Shown here piece by piece: positions 2,529 to 21,228 of a stretch of 21,228 nt of DNA. The stretch's first letter is position 1; each line of letters begins with the position of its first letter. The notes beneath the pieces are model-generated. The model made no database searches and was not told where the DNA came from. It saw nothing but the letters and a program-made list of their open reading frames with translations. The stretch covers positions 1-21,228 of IMG/VR virus record IMGVR_UViG_3300025645_003892; one strand, given 5' to 3'. The translations under genes and the position numbers were made by a program. Source of the stretch: a virus.

Positions 2529-2878
2529 TCGCTGTATACGGTACACTGAAGCGTGGCTTTGGTAACAACATACTACTAAGCAATGCTGTATACGTTTCGA
2601 ATGCAAAGACAGAGAGACAATACCCTATGGTAGTACATGGATCAGGACTACCCTTTCTCGTAGAGAAGCCTGGTGTTGGATTCAACGTAGATGTAGAACT
2701 ATACTTAGTATCGGAGGATGAACTTAAACAATTGGATATGTTAGAAGGACACCCCGATTGGTATAAAAGAAAGAGACGAGGGGCGGTCACACCCGAAGGT
2801 GAAACGCTGTTGCCTTACATATATTTTGCACCCGATGAGTACTATCACAAATCAGAGACGCTTCATGAGTGCTACTAA
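2423..2878 (+). CDS. Gamma-glutamylcyclotransferase-like (GGCT/AIG2) protein
   Basis: The core starts near residue 35 with AVYGTLKRG (37-45), the substrate-binding loop of the GGCT fold, and continues to LDMLEGHPDWYKR (104-116), where E108 sits at the place of the catalytic Glu. The family converts gamma-glutamyl peptides or amines into 5-oxoproline plus the free amine; the substrate of this phage version is unknown. The first 34 residues do not belong to the fold and overlap the 65-aa ORF. The true start could be later, near 2521, but there is no ATG, GTG or TTG at the expected place. The stop overlaps the FkbM gene start by 14 nt. Confidence 0.72.
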   Translation: MATKQRNKPNLQREAEGGRRVVVQGSDNEELRDILIAVYGTLKRGFGNNILLSNAVYVSNAKTERQYPMVVHGSGLPFLVEKPGVGFNVDVELYLVSEDELKQLDMLEGHPDWYKRKRRGAVTPEGETLLPYIYFAPDEYYHKSETLHECY

Positions 2879-3473
2879 ATGTTTTGTTGAGATAGGTAGT
2901 TGTGATTTTAACACACTGAATGACCTAGGTAAGAATGGGTGGACAGGAGTTATCATTGAGCCGGTACAAGAGTACCTAAACAACTTAGAGAAGCACGATG
3001 GTGTAACGTACATGAACTGCGCGATTGATGTGAGTAGAGGCTCAAGACAGATGGATGTATTCAAGCAGTCTGTCATTGAAAAAGACAGAGACTTTGCGGG
3101 CATGAGTTCGTTCTCTGAGTACACTCTCAAGGGCAACAAGAACCTAGTGGAGTCAAGGTTAGTTGAATCAATTACCTATGACGACATGATAAAGGAGTCT
3201 GGTATAAGCCAGATCGACTTCTTAAAAATCGACACCGAAGGGCATGACTTGGTTATCCTTAATCAAGTTGCATACGAGGGTGCGTTGCGACCCAAACTGA
3301 TTAAGGCAGAGCACAAGCACGTTGCAAATGGATGGGCATCCATGAGGGAATTACTTGAGAGCAGAGAGTACCTAGTCTATCAAGAGTTTGATGACGTGTA
3401 TGCTATAGACATGCGCACCAGTTCTAGCAGAGATCCCTTCAAGAATCATTTCGAATTTAATCTGAAAGAATAA
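2865..3473 (+). CDS. FkbM-family SAM-dependent methyltransferase
   Basis: The 202-aa protein shows the FkbM plan: a SAM-binding motif I (FVEIGSCD, residues 7-14), an acidic motif II (VIIEPV, 29-34) and the diagnostic IDFLKIDTEGHDLVIL block (117-132). FkbM enzymes methylate hydroxyl groups, usually on sugars, polyketides or surface glycans. The ATG at 2865 was chosen because the protein then begins just before motif I, while the in-frame ATG at 2799 adds 22 non-family residues inside the GGCT-like gene. It overlaps that gene by 14 nt and the next by TAATG. With a sulfotransferase and a glycosyltransferase nearby, a sugar or surface-glycan substrate is likely, but not shown. Confidence 0.85.
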   Translation: MSATKCFVEIGSCDFNTLNDLGKNGWTGVIIEPVQEYLNNLEKHDGVTYMNCAIDVSRGSRQMDVFKQSVIEKDRDFAGMSSFSEYTLKGNKNLVESRLVESITYDDMIKESGISQIDFLKIDTEGHDLVILNQVAYEGALRPKLIKAEHKHVANGWASMRELLESREYLVYQEFDDVYAIDMRTSSSRDPFKNHFEFNLKE

Positions 3474-3927: not shown

Positions 3928-4373
3928 CTGAGTATCAAATAGAAAGAAGCATAGAGCAGAACGCTATAACCCTAGCGACCTCTGTGTTCTCGAAGATTAA
4001 CCGAGCACACAAGGAAAGTTTAACAATGAGCAGAAGGGATAGAGAGTTAGTGGAAACTAGGCAGATGATATGGGCTTATCTAAAAGAGAACACAAGACTT
4101 ACCATGTCCTATATGGGCAGTGTATTTAATAGACACCACAGTACCGTGATAGCAGGTCTAAGGGTGCATAACAAGAACATGGATGTGTTCAGCAATGGTA
4201 AGCCTATTAACCCCTTGTATGTAAGCAAGTATGAAGAGGGTTCAGTTATCCTGGATCAGGCGCTTGCCCACACACGTGAGAAGAATAAGTCCCTAGTGTA
4301 CCGAGTAGTATTATACACCAACAACACTGAGACGTTAGATAAATATGAAATAGTAAATGTAACCAAGGTATGA
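3924..4373 (+). CDS. Stand-alone DnaA domain IV-like DNA-binding protein
   Basis: Residues about 36-83 read like the C-terminal domain of DnaA: SRRDRELVETRQMIWAYLKE, then TRLTMSYMGSVFNRHHSTVI. The last part matches the DnaA signature (consensus G-R-D-H-S/T-T-V), with R70, H71, H72, S73, T74 and V75 as the DNA-contacting turn. The AAA+ ATPase domain of DnaA is entirely absent: the protein is 149 aa and has no Walker A. It may bind DnaA boxes of phage or host, helping phage initiation or blocking host initiation; both are inference. The C-terminal 60 residues are not recognised. ATGA overlaps join it to both neighbours. Confidence 0.8.
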   Translation: MTEYQIERSIEQNAITLATSVFSKINRAHKESLTMSRRDRELVETRQMIWAYLKENTRLTMSYMGSVFNRHHSTVIAGLRVHNKNMDVFSNGKPINPLYVSKYEEGSVILDQALAHTREKNKSLVYRVVLYTNNTETLDKYEIVNVTKV

Positions 4374-5008
4374 TTATATCAGACAAATTTAAGTTCATCT
4401 TCGTAAAGATTCCGAAGAACGCAAGCACCTCAATGGAGGAAGCACTGCTTAAACTAGACCCAGAGGCAATGGTCATGGATAATAATAGTCCACCATTTGG
4501 TCACGAGACAATGGCTACTATCAAAAAGATAGCCGGTGAAGATAGGTGGAACGAGTACTTTAAGTTTGGGTTTGTCAGAAATCCGGAGAGAAGATTTATA
4601 TCACACTATGTATACAACTGCGATTACCACTACAGGAATAACCCCAGTGTTGCGTGGGTGTTTGACGAGACAGGCAACTTCCCTGCCCCGGAAGACAAAA
4701 TAATAACAAGGGATATGCTCATGCAGTTTCATTTCTTTGACAAGTTCTGGAGTAAGCCCTACCTTAAGTATCAGCAGGTTGAATGGATGGAAGATGACAT
4801 GTGGCTAGGCGTGGTTGAAAACATCGAGGAGGATTGGCAGTATGTTTGTGAGCGCATTGGAGAAACCATTCCGCTGTTTAAAACTAATGCTACCAACTCT
4901 AAGATCTGGAGTCTAGGCGATGAGGCCAAGAAGGTTTTTGAAATCTTGTATGAAGATGACATAAAAATGTACAACGACAGGATAGCATATGGAATGGGAC
5001 TTAAGTGA
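4370..5008 (+). CDS. Sulfotransferase (PAPS-dependent family)
   Basis: The 212-aa protein has the two cofactor motifs of the sulfotransferase superfamily. FIFVKIPKNASTSMEEAL (9-26) is the 5'-phosphosulfate-binding loop, with K-x-x-(K/G)-(S/T)-like features in PKNASTS. FGFVRNPERRFISHYV (66-81) is the 3'-phosphate-binding motif with R70, N71, P72 and S78. These enzymes move sulfate from PAPS to a hydroxyl, most often on carbohydrates or lipids. The length is slightly short but complete. No signal peptide or TM segment is present, so it should act in the cytoplasm. ATGA overlap with the DnaA-like gene; the next gene starts inside its 3' end. Confidence 0.85.
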   Translation: MIISDKFKFIFVKIPKNASTSMEEALLKLDPEAMVMDNNSPPFGHETMATIKKIAGEDRWNEYFKFGFVRNPERRFISHYVYNCDYHYRNNPSVAWVFDETGNFPAPEDKIITRDMLMQFHFFDKFWSKPYLKYQQVEWMEDDMWLGVVENIEEDWQYVCERIGETIPLFKTNATNSKIWSLGDEAKKVFEILYEDDIKMYNDRIAYGMGLK

Positions 5009-7440: not shown

Positions 7441-7642
7441 AGTTTATTTCCTGGCGACTGCAAGAATGCAGGAAGCAGCCATAGAGTTGTACGAAGACCT
7501 ACACACAAACAGTGGTGAGGCTCGTACCGATGCTGAACGTCTGCATAACACCATACGAAAGCATAAGAGAAGCATAGATACAGAATTTGATTTAATAAGA
7601 GCCGCATTGTTAGAGCATTATGATGACGCTGATTTATCTTGA
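7418..7642 (+). CDS. Hypothetical helical protein, 74 aa
   Basis: Starts 23 nt before the RusA stop and ends 23 nt inside the glycosyltransferase gene. The sequence looks all-helical and mildly acidic (for example ARMQEAAIELYEDLH, then ERLHNTIRKHKRSIDTEFDL), resembling small coiled-coil phage proteins. No domain recognised. The overlaps on both sides and the lack of a better ORF in the interval support translation. Confidence 0.5.
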   Translation: MDTKLLSKVYFLATARMQEAAIELYEDLHTNSGEARTDAERLHNTIRKHKRSIDTEFDLIRAALLEHYDDADLS

Positions 7643-8585
7643 CGGCCTAAATGGTATCAACTATCACCGGCTAATGACACCCTTCCTTAGACTTAAGGAA
7701 GAGGAGGATCTGGAGATACACTTTATAGAAAACTTTAATGACCTTAAAGAGTTCGACCTTTCAAAGGTCAAGAACCTTGTAGGGTCAAGAAGGTTTAGCG
7801 TCTCCAATCATAAAGCATTCAAGCAGTATCTGGTAGACAATGATGTCAAACTTATATTAGACAACGATGACTATTGGAAACTACCAAAGGATAATCCTGC
7901 TTACGAATACTACAAGAACCATCAGTCAAAAGATATCAAGGCGAGTATACTCATAGCCGATGAGATTTGGAGTCCCTCTGCGTTTCTTGTAGAGATAATG
8001 AAAGACATAAACCCTTCCGCTGTATACCGGGTGATACCGAATACCATACATCAAAAGGAGGAGCAATGGATTGATTGGGAAAAGGATATGCCTAAAGACT
8101 ACAAGGTTCGCTTTGGATATCTCGGAGCCAATGGACATCAAAAAGATTTAGAGCAGATGGGTATGACGTTTGAAGACCATGAGTTATATTGCATGGGTCT
8201 GATGGACTATCCAGAAAAGTTAAAAGCAAAGTATAGAATGAACCCTGTGGATATTACTCAGTACGCTAAGTTGTACAAGTTCTTCGATGTCTCCCTTAGC
8301 CCCTTGAAGGACTCCAAGTTCAACAAAAGCAAGTCTGAATTAAAAGTAGTTGAAGCAGGGTTCACTCGTACTGCAATCATAGCATCAAACGTAACGCCAT
8401 ATAAGGAGGTTATAAAGCACGGAGAGACAGGCATCCTGTGTGACACACCACAAGAATGGAAGGAGGCCGTAGAGGGCATGACATTACCCAAGGCTATGAG
8501 GCTTGGTAAGAATCTTTACGAGTATTGTAAAGAGCATTATGATTTGTCTACCATAAATAAACTGCGGCTTGAAGGACTCTCATGA
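7620..8585 (+). CDS. GT-B glycosyltransferase (GT4-like)
   Basis: The 321-aa protein has the C-terminal half of a GT4-type enzyme: RFGYLGANGHQKDL (164-177), which opens the second Rossmann domain, then LSPLKDSKFNKSKSELKVVE (226-245) and SNVTPYKEVIKHGETGILCD (256-275). The last two carry the nucleotide-sugar-binding Glu region and the conserved G-x-x-G-(I/L)-L turn. It should move a sugar from a nucleotide donor; donor and acceptor cannot be read from sequence. The N-terminal domain is shorter than in typical GT4 enzymes (about 360-400 aa). There is no TM segment. Two consecutive ATGs (7620, 7623) could both start translation. The stop overlaps the nuclease gene by ATGA. Confidence 0.78.
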   Translation: MMTLIYLDGLNGINYHRLMTPFLRLKEEEDLEIHFIENFNDLKEFDLSKVKNLVGSRRFSVSNHKAFKQYLVDNDVKLILDNDDYWKLPKDNPAYEYYKNHQSKDIKASILIADEIWSPSAFLVEIMKDINPSAVYRVIPNTIHQKEEQWIDWEKDMPKDYKVRFGYLGANGHQKDLEQMGMTFEDHELYCMGLMDYPEKLKAKYRMNPVDITQYAKLYKFFDVSLSPLKDSKFNKSKSELKVVEAGFTRTAIIASNVTPYKEVIKHGETGILCDTPQEWKEAVEGMTLPKAMRLGKNLYEYCKEHYDLSTINKLRLEGLS

Positions 8586-9255: not shown

Positions 9256-9672
9256 TCAGGAGATTAATTTCTTACGTAAGAAAAGCACAGATAGAAGAAG
9301 CAACAGTAAGTAAAAAGAAAACTTGTAAACCTTGTTGTACCACCTGTCGCTGTCCTTCATAACGATGGACGGGACAGGTACTTCTATCACCTGTACAATA
9401 GTATCACTTTCGCAAATTGCGTCTACCATAATGGTGTCAAACGAACGCACGATGTTAACCTTAAGTCTATCCTTAGTGATGGTAATGGTGTCCCGCTGTT
9501 GAAGAGTTATGGTATCACGCACCGAGACCGGTGCAGTTACAATCGTATCCGTAACAACAACCGTGTCTTTCCTTAGTACGCTGGGGTCTTTCTTGATTGC
9601 TTTTCTTAGGTGCCACTGCGCGCTGCAACTGCTCAATGATAGCACTATTATTAATAAGGATAGCCATTTCAT
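9256..9672 (-). CDS. Unimolecular-spanin-like lipoprotein
   Basis: The 138-aa protein starts with a lipoprotein signal (MKWLSLLIIVLSLSSC, lipobox L13-S-S-C16), so Cys16 should be lipid-anchored in the outer membrane. It ends with a TM helix (about 117-132) and a short basic tail, RKKLIS, suited to the inner membrane. Between them lies a beta-rich stretch with six Asp-Thr-(Ile/Val) repeats (36, 42, 53, 61, 79, 90). One chain tethered to both membranes is the design of u-spanins such as T1 gp11, which fuse inner and outer membranes at the last step of lysis. It is the final gene of the - strand lysis region. High confidence in topology, good in function. Confidence 0.75.
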   Translation of the reverse strand: MKWLSLLIIVLSLSSCSAQWHLRKAIKKDPSVLRKDTVVVTDTIVTAPVSVRDTITLQQRDTITITKDRLKVNIVRSFDTIMVDAICESDTIVQVIEVPVPSIVMKDSDRWYNKVYKFSFYLLLLLLSVLFLRKKLIS

Positions 9673-10752
9673 TTATCTCAACTGATAGTTAACACCCGCT
9701 CTTAGGTTGAATATATTTCTGTCCCAATACTTCATGTACTCGACCTCTGTAAAAAAGCCCCAACGCTTTCCTGGTTTCCATCCAAAGACAAGACCTGTAC
9801 TGTAGTCAACCCATTGATTCCCATCTACGTAGTTGCTATAAGAAAACTCTTCTTTGTCACCTACGTGCATGTGGTAAGGAAGAATGTTTAACCAAGAGTG
9901 TATCCAAAAGTCATCCTCATAGTGATAATAGTCTACCCCAATTATCGCAGACACAGACTGAATAAGACCAACACTATCTATGCTAAGTTTGTTGAATTCA
10001 TTTACGATACCAGGGTAGATATATCTGCGGAAGTCTTCATCGGTATCAGCAACCTTCTCCCCTTCTGGGTCTAACCAGAACCAGTCGCCGTTATCTATCT
10101 CATCATCATTGTCGTAATCAATGCCATAGTAGACGTCTTCATAACCCATGTTGCGTACTAAGTCCCACCAAGGGTTGTGTGCTAAGAAGTCTGCTATTGG
10201 ATTATATCCATATGACCTGTGTAAACGCCCGGCAACACCTGCTGAAAAATCTAACTCACCTATATGTAATCTTAGTCTTGATTCTACTTGCGTATAATTC
10301 AAATCAACAAGCCCTTGACTATAGTACTCGCCCTTTACCATAAAGTATTTAGCAAGGTATCTAAGGAAGTATCTTTGGTTTACGTATGCTGACCCTTGCT
10401 GACGACCCACGTCGTACTGAGCAAGGTATTCAAGTCCCTTCACAGAACCAACTGTAGCAGACAACGCTGTTGTAGACTCTGTTTGTCCGTCATAGAACCT
10501 GTTCTGTCTGTTCTCATAGTCATACCGAGCAACCCTACGTACTCCTATGGTTGCCTTATAATCAAACGGATTCTCTATAGTTATGTTTTGAAGATCCCCG
10601 CCTTGAGTTACATAGTATTCTTTTTGAGCAGGCATTGGTGAAGAAGCAAAAGCACTCGTGTAAAATGTAGCGTACTTAAATATACCCCCCACCACCTGTG
10701 CCTGGGAGAATATGGAGGACAGTACAAAGAAAGTAATTAGTATGTTTCTCAT
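9673..10752 (-). CDS. Secreted outer-membrane-type beta-rich protein in the lysis region
   Basis: The 359-aa product has a signal peptide (about 1-18, cleavage after SQA) and is rich in alternating aromatic strands ending in FNLRAGVNYQLR, similar to the last strand of Bacteroidota outer-membrane barrels although the final residue is Arg. A Ca-binding-like loop with D212, D214, D216, D220 and D223 lies near the middle. It overlaps the thioredoxin-like gene by TGATG and abuts the spanin-like gene. It may sit in the outer membrane and aid lysis or block superinfection; no known phage family was recognised, so the role is inferred. A periplasmic beta-rich protein is an alternative. Confidence 0.5.
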   Translation of the reverse strand: MRNILITFFVLSSIFSQAQVVGGIFKYATFYTSAFASSPMPAQKEYYVTQGGDLQNITIENPFDYKATIGVRRVARYDYENRQNRFYDGQTESTTALSATVGSVKGLEYLAQYDVGRQQGSAYVNQRYFLRYLAKYFMVKGEYYSQGLVDLNYTQVESRLRLHIGELDFSAGVAGRLHRSYGYNPIADFLAHNPWWDLVRNMGYEDVYYGIDYDNDDEIDNGDWFWLDPEGEKVADTDEDFRRYIYPGIVNEFNKLSIDSVGLIQSVSAIIGVDYYHYEDDFWIHSWLNILPYHMHVGDKEEFSYSNYVDGNQWVDYSTGLVFGWKPGKRWGFFTEVEYMKYWDRNIFNLRAGVNYQLR

Positions 10753-11084
10753 CAGAATTTACTTGCTCCAGTTATTTTATCAATGACATCCTGTATATCC
10801 TGGTGTGTAACAGAAAGGCTTAACGAAAGACCTGGCTCCCACCGCTGTATCTCTTTACCGTTTTCGTAAAGTATTATTGTAGGAACAGACTTTATGTCTG
10901 CGTATTCTTTAACCTCAGCATCATCAATCCATGCGTCGATAACCCGGGCGTCACTAATTTTTTTTAATGGTACGCTGTTGCTAGAATTAAACTCAGCGTT
11001 ATAATGAACCACCACCAATCCCCTGATCGGTACCTTGAAGGCACACAGCAGGGTGAATGCTATGGCGAGGGCAGCCTTTTTCAT
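10752..11084 (-). CDS. Secreted thioredoxin-fold protein lacking the CxxC active site
   Basis: The 110-aa product begins with a signal-peptide-like segment (MKKAALAIAFTLLCAF) and then follows the thioredoxin pattern: VVVHYNAEF (24-32), where the family has a strand and the W-C-x-x-C turn, and SVPTIILYENGKEIQRWEPG (66-85) with cis-Pro P68 and the typical strand-Asn-Gly-Lys turn. The redox motif is replaced by NSSN (33-36), so both catalytic Cys are Asn; the only Cys, C14, is in the signal segment. It cannot do thiol exchange and probably acts as a binding scaffold in the periplasm. It overlaps the upstream one-TM gene by ATGA. Fold call is good, function unknown. Confidence 0.7.
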   Translation of the reverse strand: MKKAALAIAFTLLCAFKVPIRGLVVVHYNAEFNSSNSVPLKKISDARVIDAWIDDAEVKEYADIKSVPTIILYENGKEIQRWEPGLSLSLSVTHQDIQDVIDKITGASKF

Positions 11085-11374
11085 TTCATCTCGAAGAGAC
11101 GCCCCTCTATTTTGTCTAGTTGCTTCTTGATGTCATCAACATCCGACTTGGTGTTCATGATTGTGGTGCGTATCAACTCATCTTTTAAGTCGTACTCTGT
11201 TCTTCCTATCACTGGTGCAGGTAATTCTTTTGCCTCTTGCACCTCAGCCTTTAGGTCAAAGTATCCAAGGCTAACTATCACTGCGCCGCCGATAATCATA
11301 CCAACGGTCTTTAGTGATAGCCCTACTACTGTGTCCTCTGATATTTCTTTATTTATCTCCACCGGACTTAGCAA
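11081..11374 (-). CDS. One-TM coiled-coil protein in the lysis region
   Basis: The 97-aa protein has one membrane helix near residues 20-37 (LKTVGMIIGGAVIVSLGYF) followed by a charged, heptad-like C-terminal segment (for example SDVDDIKKQLDKIEGRLFE). This layout occurs in holin partners and in small inner-membrane phage proteins. It overlaps the holin-like gene by 26 nt and the thioredoxin-like gene by ATGA, so the three are probably made together. The exact role is not readable; a holin regulator or membrane scaffold is reasonable. Confidence 0.55.
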   Translation of the reverse strand: MLSPVEINKEISEDTVVGLSLKTVGMIIGGAVIVSLGYFDLKAEVQEAKELPAPVIGRTEYDLKDELIRTTIMNTKSDVDDIKKQLDKIEGRLFEMK

Positions 11375-11582
11375 ATTTTTCTAATCCAGCAATTCCAAAA
11401 CATCCTATCGTGACGTACACGAAAGAGTTGTAGACACCTTCATTGATTACTAAATCCTTTCCTAACGCACCTGTTACCAGATCAAGCGTCATGACACAAA
11501 CCATTACAGCAAATGAAAGCGCACCGAGAATACTCTTCTCGTTCCAGTCATTGCTGTCTTTAAATATTTCTTTCCAACTCAT
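11349..11582 (-). CDS. Holin-like protein, two TM segments
   Basis: The 77-aa product has two hydrophobic helices, SILGALSFAVMVCVMTLDLV (about 17-36) and SFVYVTIGCFGIAGLEKFA (about 53-71), a short polar hairpin between them, and charged ends. Size, two-TM topology and position just before the coiled-coil and spanin-like genes fit a class II holin that permeabilises the inner membrane at lysis. It is joined to the Gly-Ser-Ser gene by TAATG. No endolysin is recognised in the same cassette, so the partner enzyme is elsewhere or unrecognised. Confidence 0.65.
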   Translation of the reverse strand: MSWKEIFKDSNDWNEKSILGALSFAVMVCVMTLDLVTGALGKDLVINEGVYNSFVYVTIGCFGIAGLEKFAKSGGDK

Positions 11583-11782
11583 TACTTGCCCGATGATCCC
11601 GAAGAACCAGACGATCCAGAGGAACCCGATGAGCCAGATGAGCCAGAGGAACCCGATGAACCAGACGAACCAGACGGGGAACTAGCCCCCGAGCCATTGT
11701 CGCTCTTGCCTTCGCAGTATTTACTTTTTCTTTTAAAAACCTTTACGGCTAGCCAACAATATAATTTCTTTAATCTTTCCAT
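11582..11782 (-). CDS. Gly-Ser-Ser repeat protein, 66 aa
   Basis: The N-terminal third is basic with aromatic and hydrophobic residues (MERLKKLYCWLAVKVFKRKS) and two Cys; the C-terminal half is an array of eight Gly-Ser-Ser triplets ending in GK. The array is a 9-bp minisatellite (about 11585-11669). Codons vary freely between Ser and Gly synonyms while the amino acids stay perfect, which indicates selection on this frame. The opposite strand would encode a Pro-Asp-Glu array in which Asp and Glu alternate irregularly, as expected of a shadow. It is preceded by a -7 box and coupled to the holin by TAATG. A flexible linker or membrane-associated peptide is possible; function unknown. Confidence 0.6.
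   Translation of the reverse strand: MERLKKLYCWLAVKVFKRKSKYCEGKSDNGSGASSPSGSSGSSGSSGSSGSSGSSGSSGSSGSSGK
11585..11669 (-). repeat. 9-bp imperfect tandem repeats coding Ser-Ser-Gly
   Basis: Units of the type TCN-TCN-GGN on the - strand, about nine in a row, differ from one another only at third codon positions. A fresh slippage array would show near-identical units, so this one has been under protein-level selection for some time. Confidence 0.65.
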
Positions 11783-11800: not shown

Positions 11801-14800
11801 CTATTTGGGAAGTTCGAGGTCGTACTTCACATACATAGCCTCCTCTGGGCTCTTAGCAAACGTCCTGTCAATAGTGCTCTCTACACTAGAGATGATACTG
11901 TAGTTGCCAAACTTAGCAGAATAATTAGCAGCGAATTGATACGCTCTCTTTATCTCATCCAACCGCACCTGTCTGTTGACCTTTTCTGCATCACTCAATG
12001 AGGTGTAAGGCTTGCGGAAATTCTGCTCGCTCATATTGTAGTAGAACTGTCTTGCTATATCAACAGGATAGTCTCTAAAGATTACGGCAGTAGATAACTC
12101 AGCCGCTGTTTCAAGGGGTTGCAACTCTATGTCTGGGTTTTCCTTCGCTTCCTTCATGCGCTTGCGATATGCACGAGCGATGTAGTTAAAGTTAGGCGGT
12201 ATAAAAGTCTCCTTAAAGATATAAGAACCATAAGCATCTGACCACTCCGTTAGGTTAGGCCCAATGATGTACCTGTGGAACCAACCTACGTCATCGTTAC
12301 TAAGGATTGGCCGTCCATAAGAGTCCTTTCCATCAACAAGATTAAAGAGTAATCGCGCTGCAAGGTTAGGGTCTTTGAAATCAGCGGCTATACTTTGTAG
12401 CATATTGCTTCTGGATATACCGTTACGTCCATATATAAGCCCTTGCAATTCATCGTATGGGTCTTCCGAACTCATGTTAGCAAATCGAATCTTACCGTCT
12501 TTGTCCATCCCTACAGCGACAATGTTTGAGCCCTGCATCCATGGAGGTAATACATAATTAGTAGACCTTGCTTGTTGTCCAAGTTCATCTTCCTCGTCGT
12601 CCTTCAATAACAAACCTGCTATGGCTTGATACCCTACCTTAGATAAGCCGGCAAGTGCGAGCCCCATGCTTAGTGTACCTGCACCATCTGTCATGTACGC
12701 ACCACGTTGTGATTTGGTTAGGTTCTCGTTAGTCATAGCCTGTCCCAGATCTGCAACTGCATTACGATAGATGCTAAAGAAACTACGGAAGGCTTCCACA
12801 CGGAACGAAAGGAAGTCACCAACAGGTAACTTAAATAGATTGCGTAATGACGGATGTATACGAGACATGGTAGGCATGTTCTGCTTGATACGCTCGGCTG
12901 TCATCTCGTCCACCTGCTGCTTCTGAGCAAAAGAAAGTTCATCGTATGACTTACCCTCGGGATTAGACTCAAGTCTCTTAGCGAAGTTCTCACGCTTAGT
13001 GAGGTAAGCAATCATCTTGGTATAGTCATCAATGAATCCATACTGATAGGCGGTACGTGCTGCCTTTATACCTAGTTCCTGCTGTGCTTTTTTCACCCCT
13101 GCTGGTAACCACTTCCACGCTAACTCTGGCGACACACCTTCCAATTGCTGGATGAATGAATCATTGATGTCACTAAACATACCCATGTTTGGAGATGAGC
13201 CAAGCAATCCAAGTTCTCCCATGCGGTCAAGAATTTTTTCATACTCTGGATCTAACTCACCGTCCTTCATTTTCTTGAACCTGTTCCTCAAGTCTTCCAT
13301 TGCAGTAAGCCCTCCTCTGTGCTTATTAAATGGAAGCACAAAGTTTGCTCCTAAGAAATACCAACCACCCATGATGTTCTTTCTCCAGGTAGGTAGGTTG
13401 TATAGTACACGCACACGACGCATCTGTAACAGAAGTTTATAGTATCCTTGAAGAACCTTGTTGTCAGACTGATACATCGGTGTTTGCTTCAGCATGCTAA
13501 CGAAGTCATTCTTCACAGCCTTGCCGCTCATTGGAGATTTCTTCTCCTCAATAACCGTATAGTTCTCTAGAAAGTAATCCTTTAGTTTGTCTTCGATGTA
13601 GTCAATACGATCTGAAGGAAACGCAGGGGTTTGACCATCTATTAGTTGACCACCTGTTCTTGTATAGAAATCATCAAAGGACTCTTCCTTACCCATAAGG
13701 CCCATGTCACGTGCAATTTGAGGAACCCTTACACCAAGTCTTTTCTCTGGGTCTTTAGACATGATGGCACGTACAATCGGAGTAGTAACAATTAAATCCC
13801 CAAGGTCACTACGCTGTGCAATCTCATTTACTCTATCCACCAGTGTGAACTGTTGCACCATGTTGGTAAGAGTAGCAACGGTTTGACTGAACTTAATGTA
13901 TGGGTCTTTCTCTACGCCCATGTAGTCCATCAACTCAATAGGTAAGTCTTGACGCTGTTTTAATTTCTTAGTAGGTATTCTTAGTTTACCCAAGTCTTTA
14001 GTGCCTGCCAAGCCTTCGCCATATCTACCTTGAGATTCTCGTGATGCTGCCTCTATGTTTCTTAGACTATCCTTGACCCTGTTCTTAACCTCTTCTATCT
14101 GAGTTGTCTCTACGAACTGAACAATGTCATCTAACTCATTCATATCAAGATTCCTTGCCTCCATCTCCTCAAACATTTCATCAGTGAAGTTGTCGTTTTC
14201 ATATATGTCAAAAGCGATGTCGTATATCATGGCATCTACCATAGATTTCTCAGCGGCTGCTCTTAGTTGTGGGTCGAACTTAAAGTTGGGATCAGTAAAC
14301 GCACGATATGTTCTTGTGCCGTATGACGCTGTGTTATCTATAATAGTCTCCTGCAATTCACTGCTTAGGTTATCAAAGACAGCGCTGTTCTGTATAGACT
14401 CCTGCATAGAAGCACGTATCGCTGTTAATCTTCCAAGTTGTTTCATCAACTCGGGGTTTATTTCTTGCAGTTTATCGAAGGCTTCTCGTCTTGTCTCTTC
14501 CTTTGCACCAAACAGATAGTCATTAGACAGGTCAGCCACCTCTTGTCTCTGCTCGTCTGGTAACTTATTTGTTATCTTATTTATCTGACGCAACGCAAGG
14601 TAAAATCTATTGATGTGCTGTACGTTTATAGACTCCGAAATCTCCAATGCTTGAAGCACATCTCTACGTGTTCCTCTAAGCCTGTCTATACCAAGAACCT
14701 TCTCGAGTTTCTTTGCTAATGCGTTTAGTTTAGGGCCTAGAATTCCGGTTAGTTTTTCTAGAGGATCAAAGGTCTTGTCGTAGTTCTCTGGATCTGGTAT

Positions 14801-17575
14801 ACCTGCCACGTTTTTACTTGGCTCTACATCCATCTCGCCCGTAGGCTTTTCAAACCCGTACTCGTCCTTCTCTGTTTTTTCCGTAGTCGTTGGTCGCTCT
14901 CTTTGAAAGCGTTCTGTCTGCAAGGATTCGGCCATAGGTACTTGACTGATGTCTGCACCAGCACGTACAGCCTTACTCATTCCTTTCATGTACTCAGAAA
15001 TATCTTTAGCCAGACCAGCCTCTTCAAATATCTGTACACGATTGCCTGTTATCTTACTTACGACACCATTTAAAAACGCTTTGAGTTCCTCGAGAAAAGA
15101 TGCTTCAAAAACAATTCTTTCACTACCGAGTAAGCCACCAAGTTGAACCATAAATTCCTCTGACTTGTAAGCACCAGCAGATTCTCCATCCTCACGCTCC
15201 ATGTATCGCTCCGCAAAAGCATTTAACTCCTTGACATTGCTCTCGCTTAACCTACGAATCACAAGTTTCCTAAACTGATTGAAGTCAATAGGTCTGTCGT
15301 TAAAAAACTTTGAGAATATCTTGTGGTAAACCTCATGATACGCAGTGCCTTCTGCTGTATATCTATCTACCTTACCTCTCTGAGATAGGGATTCATCTGC
15401 GGATGGTATAGACACTATAATAGGAGCGTCTTTAGTGCCTACTCTACCAGAGGTTATACCAGCAGCATTTTTTAAATCTGCTTTTTTAAAGCCAGCCGCT
15501 TTACCCGCTGCGTAGAAACCCTTTCTTCCAAACCCTACATTGAAATCTTTAGAGTCTGGATTCAAAAGTCTGTAGGCCTCACTTGCTAACACAAGTTTGC
15601 TTAGTATCCGCTGTTCTTTTATAGGTATCCTTTTACCGTCGCTATATTTTCCTTCCTCCAGCATTGTTCGCAATGCACCCGCGTCGTTCTTATCAAACAG
15701 GTTAAAGAAAACTCCTTTCTTCCTGTCTCTGTTGTATTTAAAATCAGTCAGCGCGTCGGCTACACTTTTACTTCTTGATTTTCTACCTACTTCTTCTTGG
15801 CGTGCTTGAAGTATTCCACTAATTTGAGCCTTCGCTCTGCTTGTTTCCGACTTGGGTACGTCCCCAAGTTCTTCCCCGACTTGCTCTGCACCTGGTACTT
15901 CTTCGGGCTTAACTTTTTTATCATCTGGTTGCGCTTGTGTTTGCTCTTCTGTTTGGCCCGACAGCAACTGGTCTAACTCTTTGGCTGACTGCTCCATCTC
16001 TTCTTCGATAGCAGCCTTTTCTTCCGCAGTAATATTACCTTCCTTTAATACTGCCGCTGCTGCATTAAGGTCACGCGTTAACTGGTCTGCTATTTCTTCT
16101 TGTACCCCCTCTAGTTTCATAACTCTCTCAGAGGTTTCTCTAAGTAGGCTGTACTTTTCTTGTTTTAGTCGCTGTAGTTTAGCGTCTACGGCTTTCTTTG
16201 TGGTTGGGTCTTTCTTCTTAGACTCTCTAAGTTTTTGAATCTCATTATCTATAGATGCAATCTCCCCATTGTTAGCCACAAAAGATATCTCATTGGCTAC
16301 AGAGAGTTTCTTCTGATCCTGTTCTTTTGCCCAGTCTATGTATGATAATTCACCAGGTGTTTTACCGATGCGACCTGCAAGATTGTAGGCCATTACGGGT
16401 GCTGCTGGGCCTAACTCAGCGAATGCCTCGAGTGCTATGTCTCTTGGTCTGATTTCCTCACCCGATATTACCTGTCCCGCAAACTCACCAGTACCCCCAA
16501 GCCCTGCTTGAACCAAGGTTTCTGCCGCAGCCACCTTCATGGCTCTGTTTGTCGCTGATTTACCTACAGATTTTACGAGTACGTTACCCACTTTACCCGC
16601 AGTACCCCCCGATATAGCATCGAATACCGCGATAGGGATACCACGCTTGAGGCCTTTCTCTCGTGCCTTAGACATTATTCTTTGGTCACGTGATGCTTCC
16701 CTTAGTTGATCTGGAGAAGTGACGTCTACGCCCTCCTCACGAAGTACATCCATAATAGAATGACCATACTCAAGAGCCAATGATGTTCCACCAAAGTATC
16801 CTGCTATAGCACCAGTAGTTGCACCTGCCGCTGTACCTGCACCGGGAATAACAGAGCCTACTCCTGCACCTACACCAGCACCTGCCGCTGCACCTCTGAC
16901 ACCAGTCTCATACGCAGTAGCCATAGAGATTAATGACTCTGGTATAGTGCGTATTACATCAAGCACAAAACTACCTACAGGATTATCGGTGTCGTATAGG
17001 TAGTCTTCTTCTTTTGGTGCGTCTCTTTGAACTATGTTGTTGAGGTAGGCTATCTTTTCGTAGTCCATCACCCCTGTGATTTCTGCCTCTTGTATTTCGT
17101 TAGCAAGAATACCACCAGATACAGCGCGATTCCACAATCTACCTAACTCACTTGGGTTATCGTCAATGATTAACCAGTGGTCTTTCATCTTGCGATTAAC
17201 AGGACGTTGAGACTCTATGGTTTTGTAGTATTGACTGGCTAAATTGTACGCGTCATCAGACAACTTACCCTGCATTTGCTCAAGGGTAACACCGCGTTCC
17301 TGTGCTGACTTTACAGCATCTAACAAACCAGAAGAAACCGCCTTTGAATCAGAGTCGAGTCGAGTAGATAGAGATACCGTACCGTTTACCGAAGGCTCTG
17401 ATGCTGATACCGAAGGACTGGCGATCTGAGAATCTTCGGTACCATCTTTTTTTTTTGAAAAGAAATCTTGTGCGACAACCATTGCGTCATCGCTAAGTTT
17501 ACCCTGCATCTGCTCAAGGGTTACCCCTCTATTGTACGCGGACTCAAGTGCTTCTAATAACTGCTCGTCTTCCAT
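11801..17575 (-). CDS. Giant internal virion protein (gp16-like position) with HEVYH zincin motif
   Basis: The 1924-aa protein is the last of three consecutive tail/internal genes, the place T7 gp16 holds, and may be ejected with the DNA. Visible parts are: two copies of GVTLEQMQGKLSDDA (17-31, 95-109); a Gly/Ala-rich, membrane-active-looking segment (about 217-263); a charged coiled-coil region (about 400-560); a zincin-type HEVYH (747-751) in AYHEVYHKIF, with E806/E807 in SEEFMVQ as possible third ligand; long helical domains (about 950-1700) like those of phage large polyvalent proteins; and a hydrophobic segment (about 1629-1657). No lytic transglycosylase domain was recognised. A metallopeptidase role is inferred from the motif only. 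It begins by TAATG overlap with the 565-aa gene. Confidence 0.65.
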   Translation of the reverse strand: MEDEQLLEALESAYNRGVTLEQMQGKLSDDAMVVAQDFFSKKKDGTEDSQIASPSVSASEPSVNGTVSLSTRLDSDSKAVSSGLLDAVKSAQERGVTLEQMQGKLSDDAYNLASQYYKTIESQRPVNRKMKDHWLIIDDNPSELGRLWNRAVSGGILANEIQEAEITGVMDYEKIAYLNNIVQRDAPKEEDYLYDTDNPVGSFVLDVIRTIPESLISMATAYETGVRGAAAGAGVGAGVGSVIPGAGTAAGATTGAIAGYFGGTSLALEYGHSIMDVLREEGVDVTSPDQLREASRDQRIMSKAREKGLKRGIPIAVFDAISGGTAGKVGNVLVKSVGKSATNRAMKVAAAETLVQAGLGGTGEFAGQVISGEEIRPRDIALEAFAELGPAAPVMAYNLAGRIGKTPGELSYIDWAKEQDQKKLSVANEISFVANNGEIASIDNEIQKLRESKKKDPTTKKAVDAKLQRLKQEKYSLLRETSERVMKLEGVQEEIADQLTRDLNAAAAVLKEGNITAEEKAAIEEEMEQSAKELDQLLSGQTEEQTQAQPDDKKVKPEEVPGAEQVGEELGDVPKSETSRAKAQISGILQARQEEVGRKSRSKSVADALTDFKYNRDRKKGVFFNLFDKNDAGALRTMLEEGKYSDGKRIPIKEQRILSKLVLASEAYRLLNPDSKDFNVGFGRKGFYAAGKAAGFKKADLKNAAGITSGRVGTKDAPIIVSIPSADESLSQRGKVDRYTAEGTAYHEVYHKIFSKFFNDRPIDFNQFRKLVIRRLSESNVKELNAFAERYMEREDGESAGAYKSEEFMVQLGGLLGSERIVFEASFLEELKAFLNGVVSKITGNRVQIFEEAGLAKDISEYMKGMSKAVRAGADISQVPMAESLQTERFQRERPTTTEKTEKDEYGFEKPTGEMDVEPSKNVAGIPDPENYDKTFDPLEKLTGILGPKLNALAKKLEKVLGIDRLRGTRRDVLQALEISESINVQHINRFYLALRQINKITNKLPDEQRQEVADLSNDYLFGAKEETRREAFDKLQEINPELMKQLGRLTAIRASMQESIQNSAVFDNLSSELQETIIDNTASYGTRTYRAFTDPNFKFDPQLRAAAEKSMVDAMIYDIAFDIYENDNFTDEMFEEMEARNLDMNELDDIVQFVETTQIEEVKNRVKDSLRNIEAASRESQGRYGEGLAGTKDLGKLRIPTKKLKQRQDLPIELMDYMGVEKDPYIKFSQTVATLTNMVQQFTLVDRVNEIAQRSDLGDLIVTTPIVRAIMSKDPEKRLGVRVPQIARDMGLMGKEESFDDFYTRTGGQLIDGQTPAFPSDRIDYIEDKLKDYFLENYTVIEEKKSPMSGKAVKNDFVSMLKQTPMYQSDNKVLQGYYKLLLQMRRVRVLYNLPTWRKNIMGGWYFLGANFVLPFNKHRGGLTAMEDLRNRFKKMKDGELDPEYEKILDRMGELGLLGSSPNMGMFSDINDSFIQQLEGVSPELAWKWLPAGVKKAQQELGIKAARTAYQYGFIDDYTKMIAYLTKRENFAKRLESNPEGKSYDELSFAQKQQVDEMTAERIKQNMPTMSRIHPSLRNLFKLPVGDFLSFRVEAFRSFFSIYRNAVADLGQAMTNENLTKSQRGAYMTDGAGTLSMGLALAGLSKVGYQAIAGLLLKDDEEDELGQQARSTNYVLPPWMQGSNIVAVGMDKDGKIRFANMSSEDPYDELQGLIYGRNGISRSNMLQSIAADFKDPNLAARLLFNLVDGKDSYGRPILSNDDVGWFHRYIIGPNLTEWSDAYGSYIFKETFIPPNFNYIARAYRKRMKEAKENPDIELQPLETAAELSTAVIFRDYPVDIARQFYYNMSEQNFRKPYTSLSDAEKVNRQVRLDEIKRAYQFAANYSAKFGNYSIISSVESTIDRTFAKSPEEAMYVKYDLELPK
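17249..17527 (-). repeat. Duplicated segment within the giant protein gene
   Basis: The 15-residue peptide GVTLEQMQGKLSDDA is encoded at 17483-17527 and again at 17249-17293, 78 codons apart. The flanking residues (LLEALESAYNR and LLDAVKSAQER before; AQDFF and ASQYY after) are also alike, so a unit of about 40 residues was duplicated. The DNA copies differ at many silent positions, so the duplication is not recent. Confidence 0.7.
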
Positions 17576-20246: not shown

Positions 20247-21228
20247 CTATTGCCCTTGCTGGTTGTGTAAATTGGACTTAGTGTATATAAAGTTTATAGC
20301 ATACAACTCATGCTTTGAGGTTGTGGAGTTTACAAACCTGCCCTTCAAGTAATAGTCTCGCAAAGAGTCACCTTCAATAGCAGAATTAGCAATCAATACA
20401 ATCTCATCATTAGCAGTAACACCACTTACGGTTCCGTTACACTGTAATACTTTCTCTCCATCAAGGGCTGTGGCATATAGATTTAGTGGTACCAGATTGG
20501 CCCCGCTAACTTTAAACAATGCCGTTGTTACACCTAGCGGAAATCCTATACTGTTAATTGAGTTCTTAAATGTTATCTTATCTGTAGCAATAGATGCCGC
20601 AGACCCTAAGCCAAAGACCTCAGACGTTCCGCTAATGGAACTAATATTTGCTGTTGCTGTATAAGACACATTGTTAGTTGAGTCCTGGTGTAAGGGTGCG
20701 TAGTAAAACCCTTCTTTCTCCTCCCATATAGAAGTAGCAATCGTGCTTGTTTGGTCAACATTAGTTAGTGTTACACTCCAATCTTTATTGTCACCCTCAA
20801 GGCTTACCGCTTCGTAGACCTTGACCATAGATGGATTGAAGTTAGAAATACACTCTACAATACTATCTCCTGCAACACCATAGAATGTATTACGGGTAGC
20901 ATCTGGATTATGCTCATATATACCGCCGTTTTTAAAGGTGTATAACCTGTCGGAAAGACCTATTATATTTTCTGCTTGATAAGAATATCTTGTGCTCCAG
21001 TAATCAGACTTTACATCATAGGCTATAGTGAACTCTGCAAGAGTCTCTGATGTATTGCTTATAGTTAAAGAAGATTGACCTGCACTATCGGGAGTTACCA
21101 CACCAGTAACCTGATCGTATCTCCCTGTATGATACGCCTGGTAAGCCGATGAGGTAATTAATATAGGTATGCTTGTAGTCACGCCAGTAATGCTCGGAGA
21201 TTGATCTTGAGACAGTCCTACGATAGGG
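20247..21228 (-). CDS. Tail nozzle/stabilisation-like protein, 5' end cut by the window
   Basis: The frame stays open to the right edge, so the N-terminus is missing. A GTG at 21182 is in frame but is not needed as a start: the upstream codons read PIVGLSQDQSPSITG without a stop. The visible part (about 326 codons) is beta-rich and contains YSYQAENIIGLSDRLYTFKN, GGIYEHN and NTFYG, followed by SNFNPSMVKVYEAVSLEG. This is the pattern of a C-terminal domain common to tail nozzle or head-tail stabilisation proteins of Bacteroidota podoviruses, including crAss-like phages. Its position just before the gp14-like gene equals T7 gene 12. The exact family needs a profile search. Confidence 0.6.
   Translation of the reverse strand, partial: PIVGLSQDQSPSITGVTTSIPILITSSAYQAYHTGRYDQVTGVVTPDSAGQSSLTISNTSETLAEFTIAYDVKSDYWSTRYSYQAENIIGLSDRLYTFKNGGIYEHNPDATRNTFYGVAGDSIVECISNFNPSMVKVYEAVSLEGDNKDWSVTLTNVDQTSTIATSIWEEKEGFYYAPLHQDSTNNVSYTATANISSISGTSEVFGLGSAASIATDKITFKNSINSIGFPLGVTTALFKVSGANLVPLNLYATALDGEKVLQCNGTVSGVTANDEIVLIANSAIEGDSLRDYYLKGRFVNSTTSKHELYAINFIYTKSNLHNQQGQ

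Follow-up and report, generated by a model that had tools for sequence, protein, structure and literature searches.

The window, by which we mean the whole stretch of DNA analysed here, is a virus record of 21,228 bases. It encodes a small secreted-looking protein, T, which is homologous to thioredoxins, lacks both active-site cysteines and belongs to a family in which this loss is conserved. Its gene lies in a conserved cassette together with the genes for C, a putative single-TM protein, and B, a predicted 12-stranded outer-membrane beta-barrel, and lysis-type genes are neighbors of this cassette in many loci. Both catalytic cysteines are gone from T and are mostly replaced by Asn, suggesting that T is probably a structural adaptor and not an enzyme; we are fairly confident that it is a redox-dead adaptor. 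For the three proteins together, we tentatively favor, at somewhat below an even chance, a reading in which this adaptor is part of a C-T-B envelope complex with a late, lysis-linked role. The genes of the minus-strand row and the segments discussed below are as follows.

11801-17575, minus strand: giant protein, at the upstream end of the tight minus-strand row.
11582-11782, minus strand: repeat protein of 66 aa whose tail carries GSS-type repeats (its collagen Pfam match fell below the cut-off).
11349-11582, minus strand: HOL77, a 77-aa hydrophobic protein and frequent neighbor of the cassette, recognized from its ORF and relatives.
11081-11374, minus strand: C, 97 aa, TTG start as listed, with an N-terminal hydrophobic segment and then a charged stretch.
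10752-11084, minus strand: T, 110 aa, secreted-looking thioredoxin-fold protein (sequence profiles) without active-site cysteines.
10977-10988, minus strand: NSSN codons of T, residues 33-36, at the CxxC position in the HMMER alignment to 7ool.
10878-10889, minus strand: cis-Pro loop SVPT of T, residues 66-69, with the Pro kept in relatives.
10755-10760, minus strand: C-terminal Lys-Phe of T; an aromatic C-terminus is kept in relatives.
9673-10752, minus strand: B, 359 aa, predicted 12-stranded outer-membrane beta-barrel (AlphaFold, VIA-align).
10438-10533, minus strand: residues 74-105 of B, which form the turn from strand 2 to strand 3, on the periplasmic side by inferred topology.
9964-10218, minus strand: residues 179-263 of B, an insert of 85 aa that separates strands 7 and 8, at the cell surface by inferred topology.
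9256-9672, minus strand: candidate unimolecular spanin with an LSSC lipobox and a C-terminal hydrophobic segment at 114-138 (sequence and hydropathy).

The genes for C and T overlap by 4 nt and those for T and B by 1 nt. The counterpart of the repeat protein in L011 has 63 aa. Elsewhere in the window, plus-strand genes at 2799-3473, 4370-5008 and 7620-8585 matched FkbM methyltransferase, sulfotransferase and glycosyltransferase families, respectively (Pfam, above the cut-off), and these three possibly act in sugar or surface modification. The minus-strand region 20247-21182 matched the C-terminal domain of the crAss-like phage muzzle protein (PF25729, E 1.3e-09).

T has a hydrophobic N-terminus (residues 4-26 by hydropathy), the stretch VVVHYNAEFNSSN and the segment SVPTIILYENG. 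By itself, the T protein of the window scored 14 bits against Pfam Thioredoxin (PF00085), below the cut-off of 23.5. A first relatives-based profile matched PDB thioredoxins at 1.1e-05, and HMMER placed NSSN over the CSPC of the solved thioredoxin 7ool. A second profile matched 127 PDB sequences at E<=0.01, and a 25-row profile matched 185 at E<=0.001, of which the 60 listed were all thioredoxins or thioredoxin-domain proteins by name, one of them a designed Trx. The top value of the 25-row profile, 1.8e-16, adds up three domains within a single chain; among single-domain thioredoxins, the best match was at 3.9e-11. Pfam Thioredoxin itself matched 12 of 15 T members at E<=0.01, and across 24 records a match at this level was present in all 24, with the curated cut-off exceeded in 11. 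In a scan that also took in a CGPC control as a tenth protein, eight of nine cassette T proteins passed the curated cut-off, the exception being that of L043. The AlphaFold model of T, built from 14 sequences, was poor (mean pLDDT 56.2, with residues 31-55, including NSSN, below 50), so the fold assignment rests on the profiles and the model was left out of the fold search. By profile homology, T is assigned to the thioredoxin fold, and the original prediction of such a fold with NSSN at the CxxC position, behind a signal-like N-terminus, was thereby confirmed. In L055 (5629-6273) and L056 (5635-6273), T continues the reading frame of a basic protein encoded upstream, giving ORFs of 214 and 212 aa; these are either real fusions or missed starts.

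It had also been considered that the missing cysteines might be local decay among relatives that keep CxxC. Among the matches listed, 142 distinct T relatives included none with CxxC, 122 with NxxN and one with Cys at either site, counted over rows that share ancestry and are therefore not independent; local decay in that sense did not occur, and the non-redox role originally suggested for T gains support from the same count. The cis-Pro column held Pro in 139 of these relatives and a gap in three, which describes the sequence column and not its geometry. Asn occupied the first site in 49 and the second in 51 of the 65 distinct T sequences of the first set, all 65 of which kept the cis-Pro; CxxC occurred in none, and the lone active-site Cys was that of L116. 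Loci fetched by C alone, a route that carries no bias towards any T motif, gave 74 distinct T sequences with Asn in 73 and 72 at the two sites, Cys in none and the cis-Pro in 73, the remaining row being partial. CxxC occurs elsewhere in the T proteins of L143 and L218, by eye within the signal-like N-terminus. Some sub-branches carry V, T, I or A at NxxN and retain the gene. Values of pN/pS for T ranged from 0.04 to 0.25 in 12 pairs, indicating purifying selection at the sequence level. An aromatic C-terminal residue was present in 138 of 139 distinct complete T proteins (the exception, L182, ends in FNKFQ; three partial rows were not counted).

A second thioredoxin, with CGPC, is encoded in 5 of 23 virus records (G011, G016, G018, G023 and G026) and likewise on the MAG contig of L145; by eye, these CGPC proteins have no signal-like start. 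A tree built from 48 T representatives of the cassette and six CGPC thioredoxins split the two groups at 100/97. The sequences thus support a single origin of the cysteine loss; this falls short of proof because the tree has only 96 columns and a midpoint root. When three T queries were compared with INPHARED by tblastn, 2, 5 and 8 records were matched, some annotated as thioredoxin. Five records of the eight-record query were examined, and all five matches were ordinary CxxC thioredoxins found by the T profile at E values of 3e-10 to 3e-14, with B and C absent from the fetched stretch. The T profile is thus able to find CxxC thioredoxins, and the absence of CxxC at the cassettes is not a detection effect. 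One record, L234 (NC_073930.1, 52-564), is that of an ssRNA phage with an ordinary CVPC thioredoxin frame before the maturation gene, possibly an assembly artefact.

That T belongs to a conserved, by prediction envelope-spanning cassette had not been part of the original prediction. Among the matches listed, T and C stood beside B in 64 of 69 distinct barrel-fetched loci; four of the exceptions (L111, L120, L122 and L139) are cut by the contig end, and one (L144) is uncut. Fetching by C gave all three genes in 74 of 80 loci, again among the matches listed. L166 and L171 end at the contig edge, and L155, L164, L173 and L204 hold C and T only; the barrel of L155 lies elsewhere in the contig, and for L164, L173 and L204, whose records span 34-38 kb, a search found no barrel. 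These sets are samples, with 80 of 556 confirmed matches taken for the barrel and 80 of 582 for C, and identical copies (exact tail match) were removed before counting. In the pool of T-fetched and B-fetched loci, a mixed set from which the 69 B-fetched loci were recounted separately, the whole trio was found in 68 of 74 distinct loci, or in 69 of 74 when the longest-flank copies were used. The order was C-T-B in 53 of the 68 loci, B-C-T in 13, C-B-T in one and B-C-T with a CGPC thioredoxin in one, and all three cassette orders keep the genes together. Compared with the window, L016 shows 39% identity in the upstream giant gene and 90, 97, 83, 96 and 100% in HOL77, C, T, B and the spanin candidate, respectively, a contrast which suggests that these five genes travel as a block. 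In three IMG/VR contigs (L003/L015, L057/L058 and L203, the last in G019), all or part of the cassette is present twice, in diverged form, representing either two copies per phage or chimeric assembly.

The AlphaFold model of B, built from 43 sequences, had a mean pLDDT of 83.2, a pTM of 0.76 and twelve long strands. The best VIA-align 2 match was to the barrel of TamA (Z 11.0, rmsd 3.6, 180 aligned), followed by CymA (Z 10.8, rmsd 5.7, 202 aligned). Foldseek against the PDB returned mostly outer-membrane barrels, with TM values of 0.15-0.31 by query and E<=0.001 in six only. B is thus predicted to be an outer-membrane beta-barrel; sharing this fold with other barrels shows no function. The closest predicted viral structure was A0A516LKJ4 (TM 0.78, 25% identity), so a named relative of B may exist. 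With sidedness inferred from strand order, the turn at residues 74-105 would face the periplasm. At 3.15 bits, compared with 2.87 for all strands, it exceeds the other measured loops in conservation, and its pLDDT is low; conservation in spite of low pLDDT fits a partner-binding segment, and we regard the turn as a candidate docking segment. The insert at residues 179-263 scored 2.71 bits, near the strand value. In C, a hydrophobic segment at 16-41 (by hydropathy) is followed by a charged stretch that, by eye, forms a putative coiled coil.

The lysis-region setting that had been proposed for T held up in many loci. In several loci, matches to a PHROG endolysin (phrog_894) and a PHROG holin (phrog_3427) are found close to the cassette, and 35 of the 74 distinct loci have M15 endolysin or 3-TM holin relatives in their flanks; in the other 39, no such relative was present within the fetched flank. 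Relatives of the u-spanin candidate were found in 20 of the 74, of HOL77 in 22 and of any lysis-type protein or HOL77 in 56. The original prediction had set T between a holin-like pair and an outer-membrane-type protein. The latter agrees with the predicted barrel B, but the former did not stand: HOL77 had no Pfam or PHROG match, so it cannot be called a holin, and C is a putative single-TM protein that is not holin-like.

At 9256-9672, the features of a unimolecular spanin (a lipobox and a C-terminal hydrophobic segment) are present in terms of sequence and hydropathy, and the match to the PHROG Rz-like spanin was at E 0.94 only. The candidate has a Cys after its lipobox, unlike the 58 u-spanins treated in PMC6139136, none of which has one according to the passages concerned. 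In 18 of 74 loci, all three cassette genes are accompanied by a u-spanin candidate, and in two more such a candidate accompanies a barrel that the contig end cuts off. The trio was rejected as a general spanin replacement on this count, and the candidate in the window together with these 18 loci implies that outer-membrane disruption may already be covered. As for a two-component spanin, the B protein of the window is a predicted barrel whose N-terminal segment lacks Cys, leaving no lipoprotein partner. T is not a lipoprotein family either, given that Cys is entirely absent from 19 of 65 T rows.

We searched for the trio in reference collections and in the literature. tblastn with seven barrels and one C protein against INPHARED gave no match, and no trio protein matched a PHROG better than E 0.0029, in keeping with the original remark that no standard lysis gene resembles T. 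The weak PHROG matches (T of L138 to phrog_11971, C of L150 to phrog_12220 and phrog_473, and C of L138 to phrog_37816) were to families of unknown function; the one exception is phrog_473, matched at 0.0082, which is a family of virion structural proteins. PADLOC at E<=0.01 gave nothing for T, B, C and two neighbors in the window or for the L145 trio, and a defence system was rejected on this basis; PADLOC is built for defence systems, and exclusion proteins may fall outside it. No description of a C-T-B trio was found in the open-access literature searched.

A genome scan found six loci, all on MAG contigs. Three were labeled Bacteroidetes, Flavobacteriaceae or Flavobacteriales; the other three, labeled Alphaproteobacteria (one) and Woesearchaeota (two), are perhaps misbinned phage contigs. 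The host is probably a member of the Bacteroidota, and most contigs are presumably of marine origin, judging by the sample numbers. Portal families differ between L055 (phrog_156) and L062 (phrog_33693), which suggests more than one phage lineage. C-fetched loci often have, next to the cassette, a large gene whose product carries a T9SS type A sorting domain. TIGR04183 matched large secreted-looking proteins in L145 (5000-7984, E 1.7e-14), L150 (755-3871, 3.1e-13) and L155 (6292-9387, 5.3e-08), and proteins of this kind adjoin the cassette in further loci of the range L146-L225. A regular expression for the C-terminal T9SS motif flagged 37 of 226 sequences, and the profile confirmed three proteins and five records. 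By virus record, TIGR04183 was found in 5 of 20, all five C-fetched, and in none of the 15 among them that were T- or B-fetched; the barrel-fetched MAG contig L145 also has a match. A T9SS cargo was therefore rejected as a constant partner, TIGR04183 being present in only 5 of 20 virus records. Cryophage has been described as encoding proteins with T9SS type A sorting domains (PMC7468147), like those seen beside the cassette; unlike the trio loci, Cryophage is presented there without the word thioredoxin in the main text, and the T9SS domain was not found in any of the 15 T- or B-fetched records. The L145 contig also contains, around its CGPC thioredoxin (13151-15782), QueC and a PTPS-family protein (both above the Pfam cut-off) as well as a radical-SAM-like protein (below it), which we read as a putative 7-deazaguanine DNA-modification set.

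In the reading we favor, C would sit in the inner membrane and extend a putative coiled coil into the periplasm, B would form the outer end of a phage-encoded three-protein envelope complex as a 12-stranded outer-membrane barrel, and T would be a periplasmic, redox-dead thioredoxin-fold adaptor between the two. T would hold C and B via its retained cis-Pro groove and perhaps also its aromatic C-terminus, with the conserved turn 74-105 as the candidate dock on B. The complex would be expressed late, its genes lying in one row with the lysis-type genes, and would help to open or destabilise the outer membrane, adding to the spanin where one is present. This reading is supported by the thioredoxin homology of T, its conserved Cys loss, the conservation of the trio, the predicted barrel, the lysis-type neighbors in many loci, the gene overlaps in the window and the block-like travel in L016. 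Against it stand the poor model of T, the low Foldseek TM values of B, the 39 of 74 loci without an M15 or 3-TM holin relative, the spanin candidate of the window and its co-occurrence with the trio in 18 of 74 loci, and the C-T pairs without a barrel (L164, L173 and L204) or with the barrel elsewhere (L155). In many C-fetched relatives, moreover, the cassette has a T9SS-tagged gene next to it, which would also fit a surface role. A late, lysis-linked role of the trio is nevertheless the likeliest.

The main rival is superinfection exclusion or receptor masking, in which B would sit on the surface of the infected cell, its insert would cover or occupy a receptor, and T and C would anchor or assemble B. 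We consider this unlikely, while giving it the most weight among the alternatives. The 85-aa insert of B, which lies at the surface by inferred topology and is nearly as conserved as the strands, favors it, as do the T9SS-tagged cargo genes that adjoin the cassette in many C-fetched relatives. However, lysis genes are adjacent in many loci, surface loops would be expected to be more variable, and PADLOC gave no match, with the caveat that it may not cover exclusion proteins. An uptake or secretion channel (a nutrient porin or an export pore), whose periplasmic stem would consist of C and T, would account for structural matches of B that include CymA, NanC, OmpG and TamA. We judge a channel to be distinctly improbable, since a common barrel fold shows no function and a lysis setting and a fixed trio would be unusual for a metabolic gene.

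The trio could also belong to the virion or to DNA ejection, given that the cassette of L062 lies downstream of a portal gene and that of the window downstream of a 1924-aa gene; the signal-like hydrophobic starts of T and B and the predicted barrel would be unusual for packaged proteins, and there seems little to recommend this role. Still less credible is an enzyme of thioredoxin fold with a new NxxN active site and non-thiol chemistry. The motif is strongly kept (122 of 142), yet the sub-branches with V, T, I or A at this position retain the gene. Local decay of a phage thioredoxin, which the weak Pfam similarity of the single protein might suggest, is contradicted by the absence of CxxC in all 142 relatives and by the purifying selection seen in 12 pairs, and the CGPC thioredoxin alongside in 5 of 23 virus records argues in the same direction; its probability is negligible.

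Among known systems, the T7 DNA polymerase has host thioredoxin as a scaffold-like, redox-independent subunit. T would share with it the use of the fold as a scaffold, whereas the T7 case concerns a host protein in DNA replication. The host thioredoxin used in filamentous phage assembly bears CxxC and is cytoplasmic. It is required for that assembly, its redox property is not (PMC5408679), and according to the passages on this process it acts with inner- and outer-membrane phage proteins, as we propose for T; the difference is that it belongs to the host. TraF of the F-plasmid T4SS, as described in the relevant passages of PMC7555446, is a periplasmic protein with a thioredoxin-like fold, no CxxC and an association with the outer-membrane complex, and the same element encodes a CxxC homologue, TrbB. 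TraF thus resembles T, for which a periplasmic location is likewise proposed, in its CxxC-less fold and in the CxxC homologue of the same element. It differs in belonging to pilus and conjugation machinery, in its size of 26 kDa and in an extra N-terminal domain, and the passages on it mention no trio with a barrel and a single-TM protein. Two T relatives gave weak matches to Pfam TrbC_Ftype, below the cut-off. The spanins Rz-Rz1 and T1 gp11 are, in the account given in passages of PMC6139136, phage lysis proteins that span the envelope, as the trio would. C, with its putative N-terminal TM segment and putative coiled coil, would resemble an i-spanin; unlike spanins, the trio would have a predicted barrel instead of a lipoprotein as outer partner and a third member of thioredoxin fold.

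Taken as a whole, the trio may exceed T in novelty, T being a variant on the theme of thioredoxin-fold adaptors. We put at only a little under even the chance that a coiled-coil C, a Cys-free T and a barrel B form an undescribed phage envelope machine that bridges the periplasm, serves to open the outer membrane or to control the surface in addition to holin, endolysin and spanin, and is common to otherwise different phages, probably infecting Bacteroidota. About 13% of the phages surveyed in PMC6139136 had no recognisable spanin, and the passages concerned ask about another route through the outer membrane; Bacteroidetes phages are reported with unimolecular spanins only in the part of PMC12596118 that covers them. 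A conserved trio that is predicted to span the envelope and, in uncultured phages, often lies by endolysin or holin genes makes the question of an alternative route testable. The T family also offers a clean natural case of the passage from thioredoxin enzyme to scaffold, in which the CGPC paralogues of the same records would serve as internal controls.
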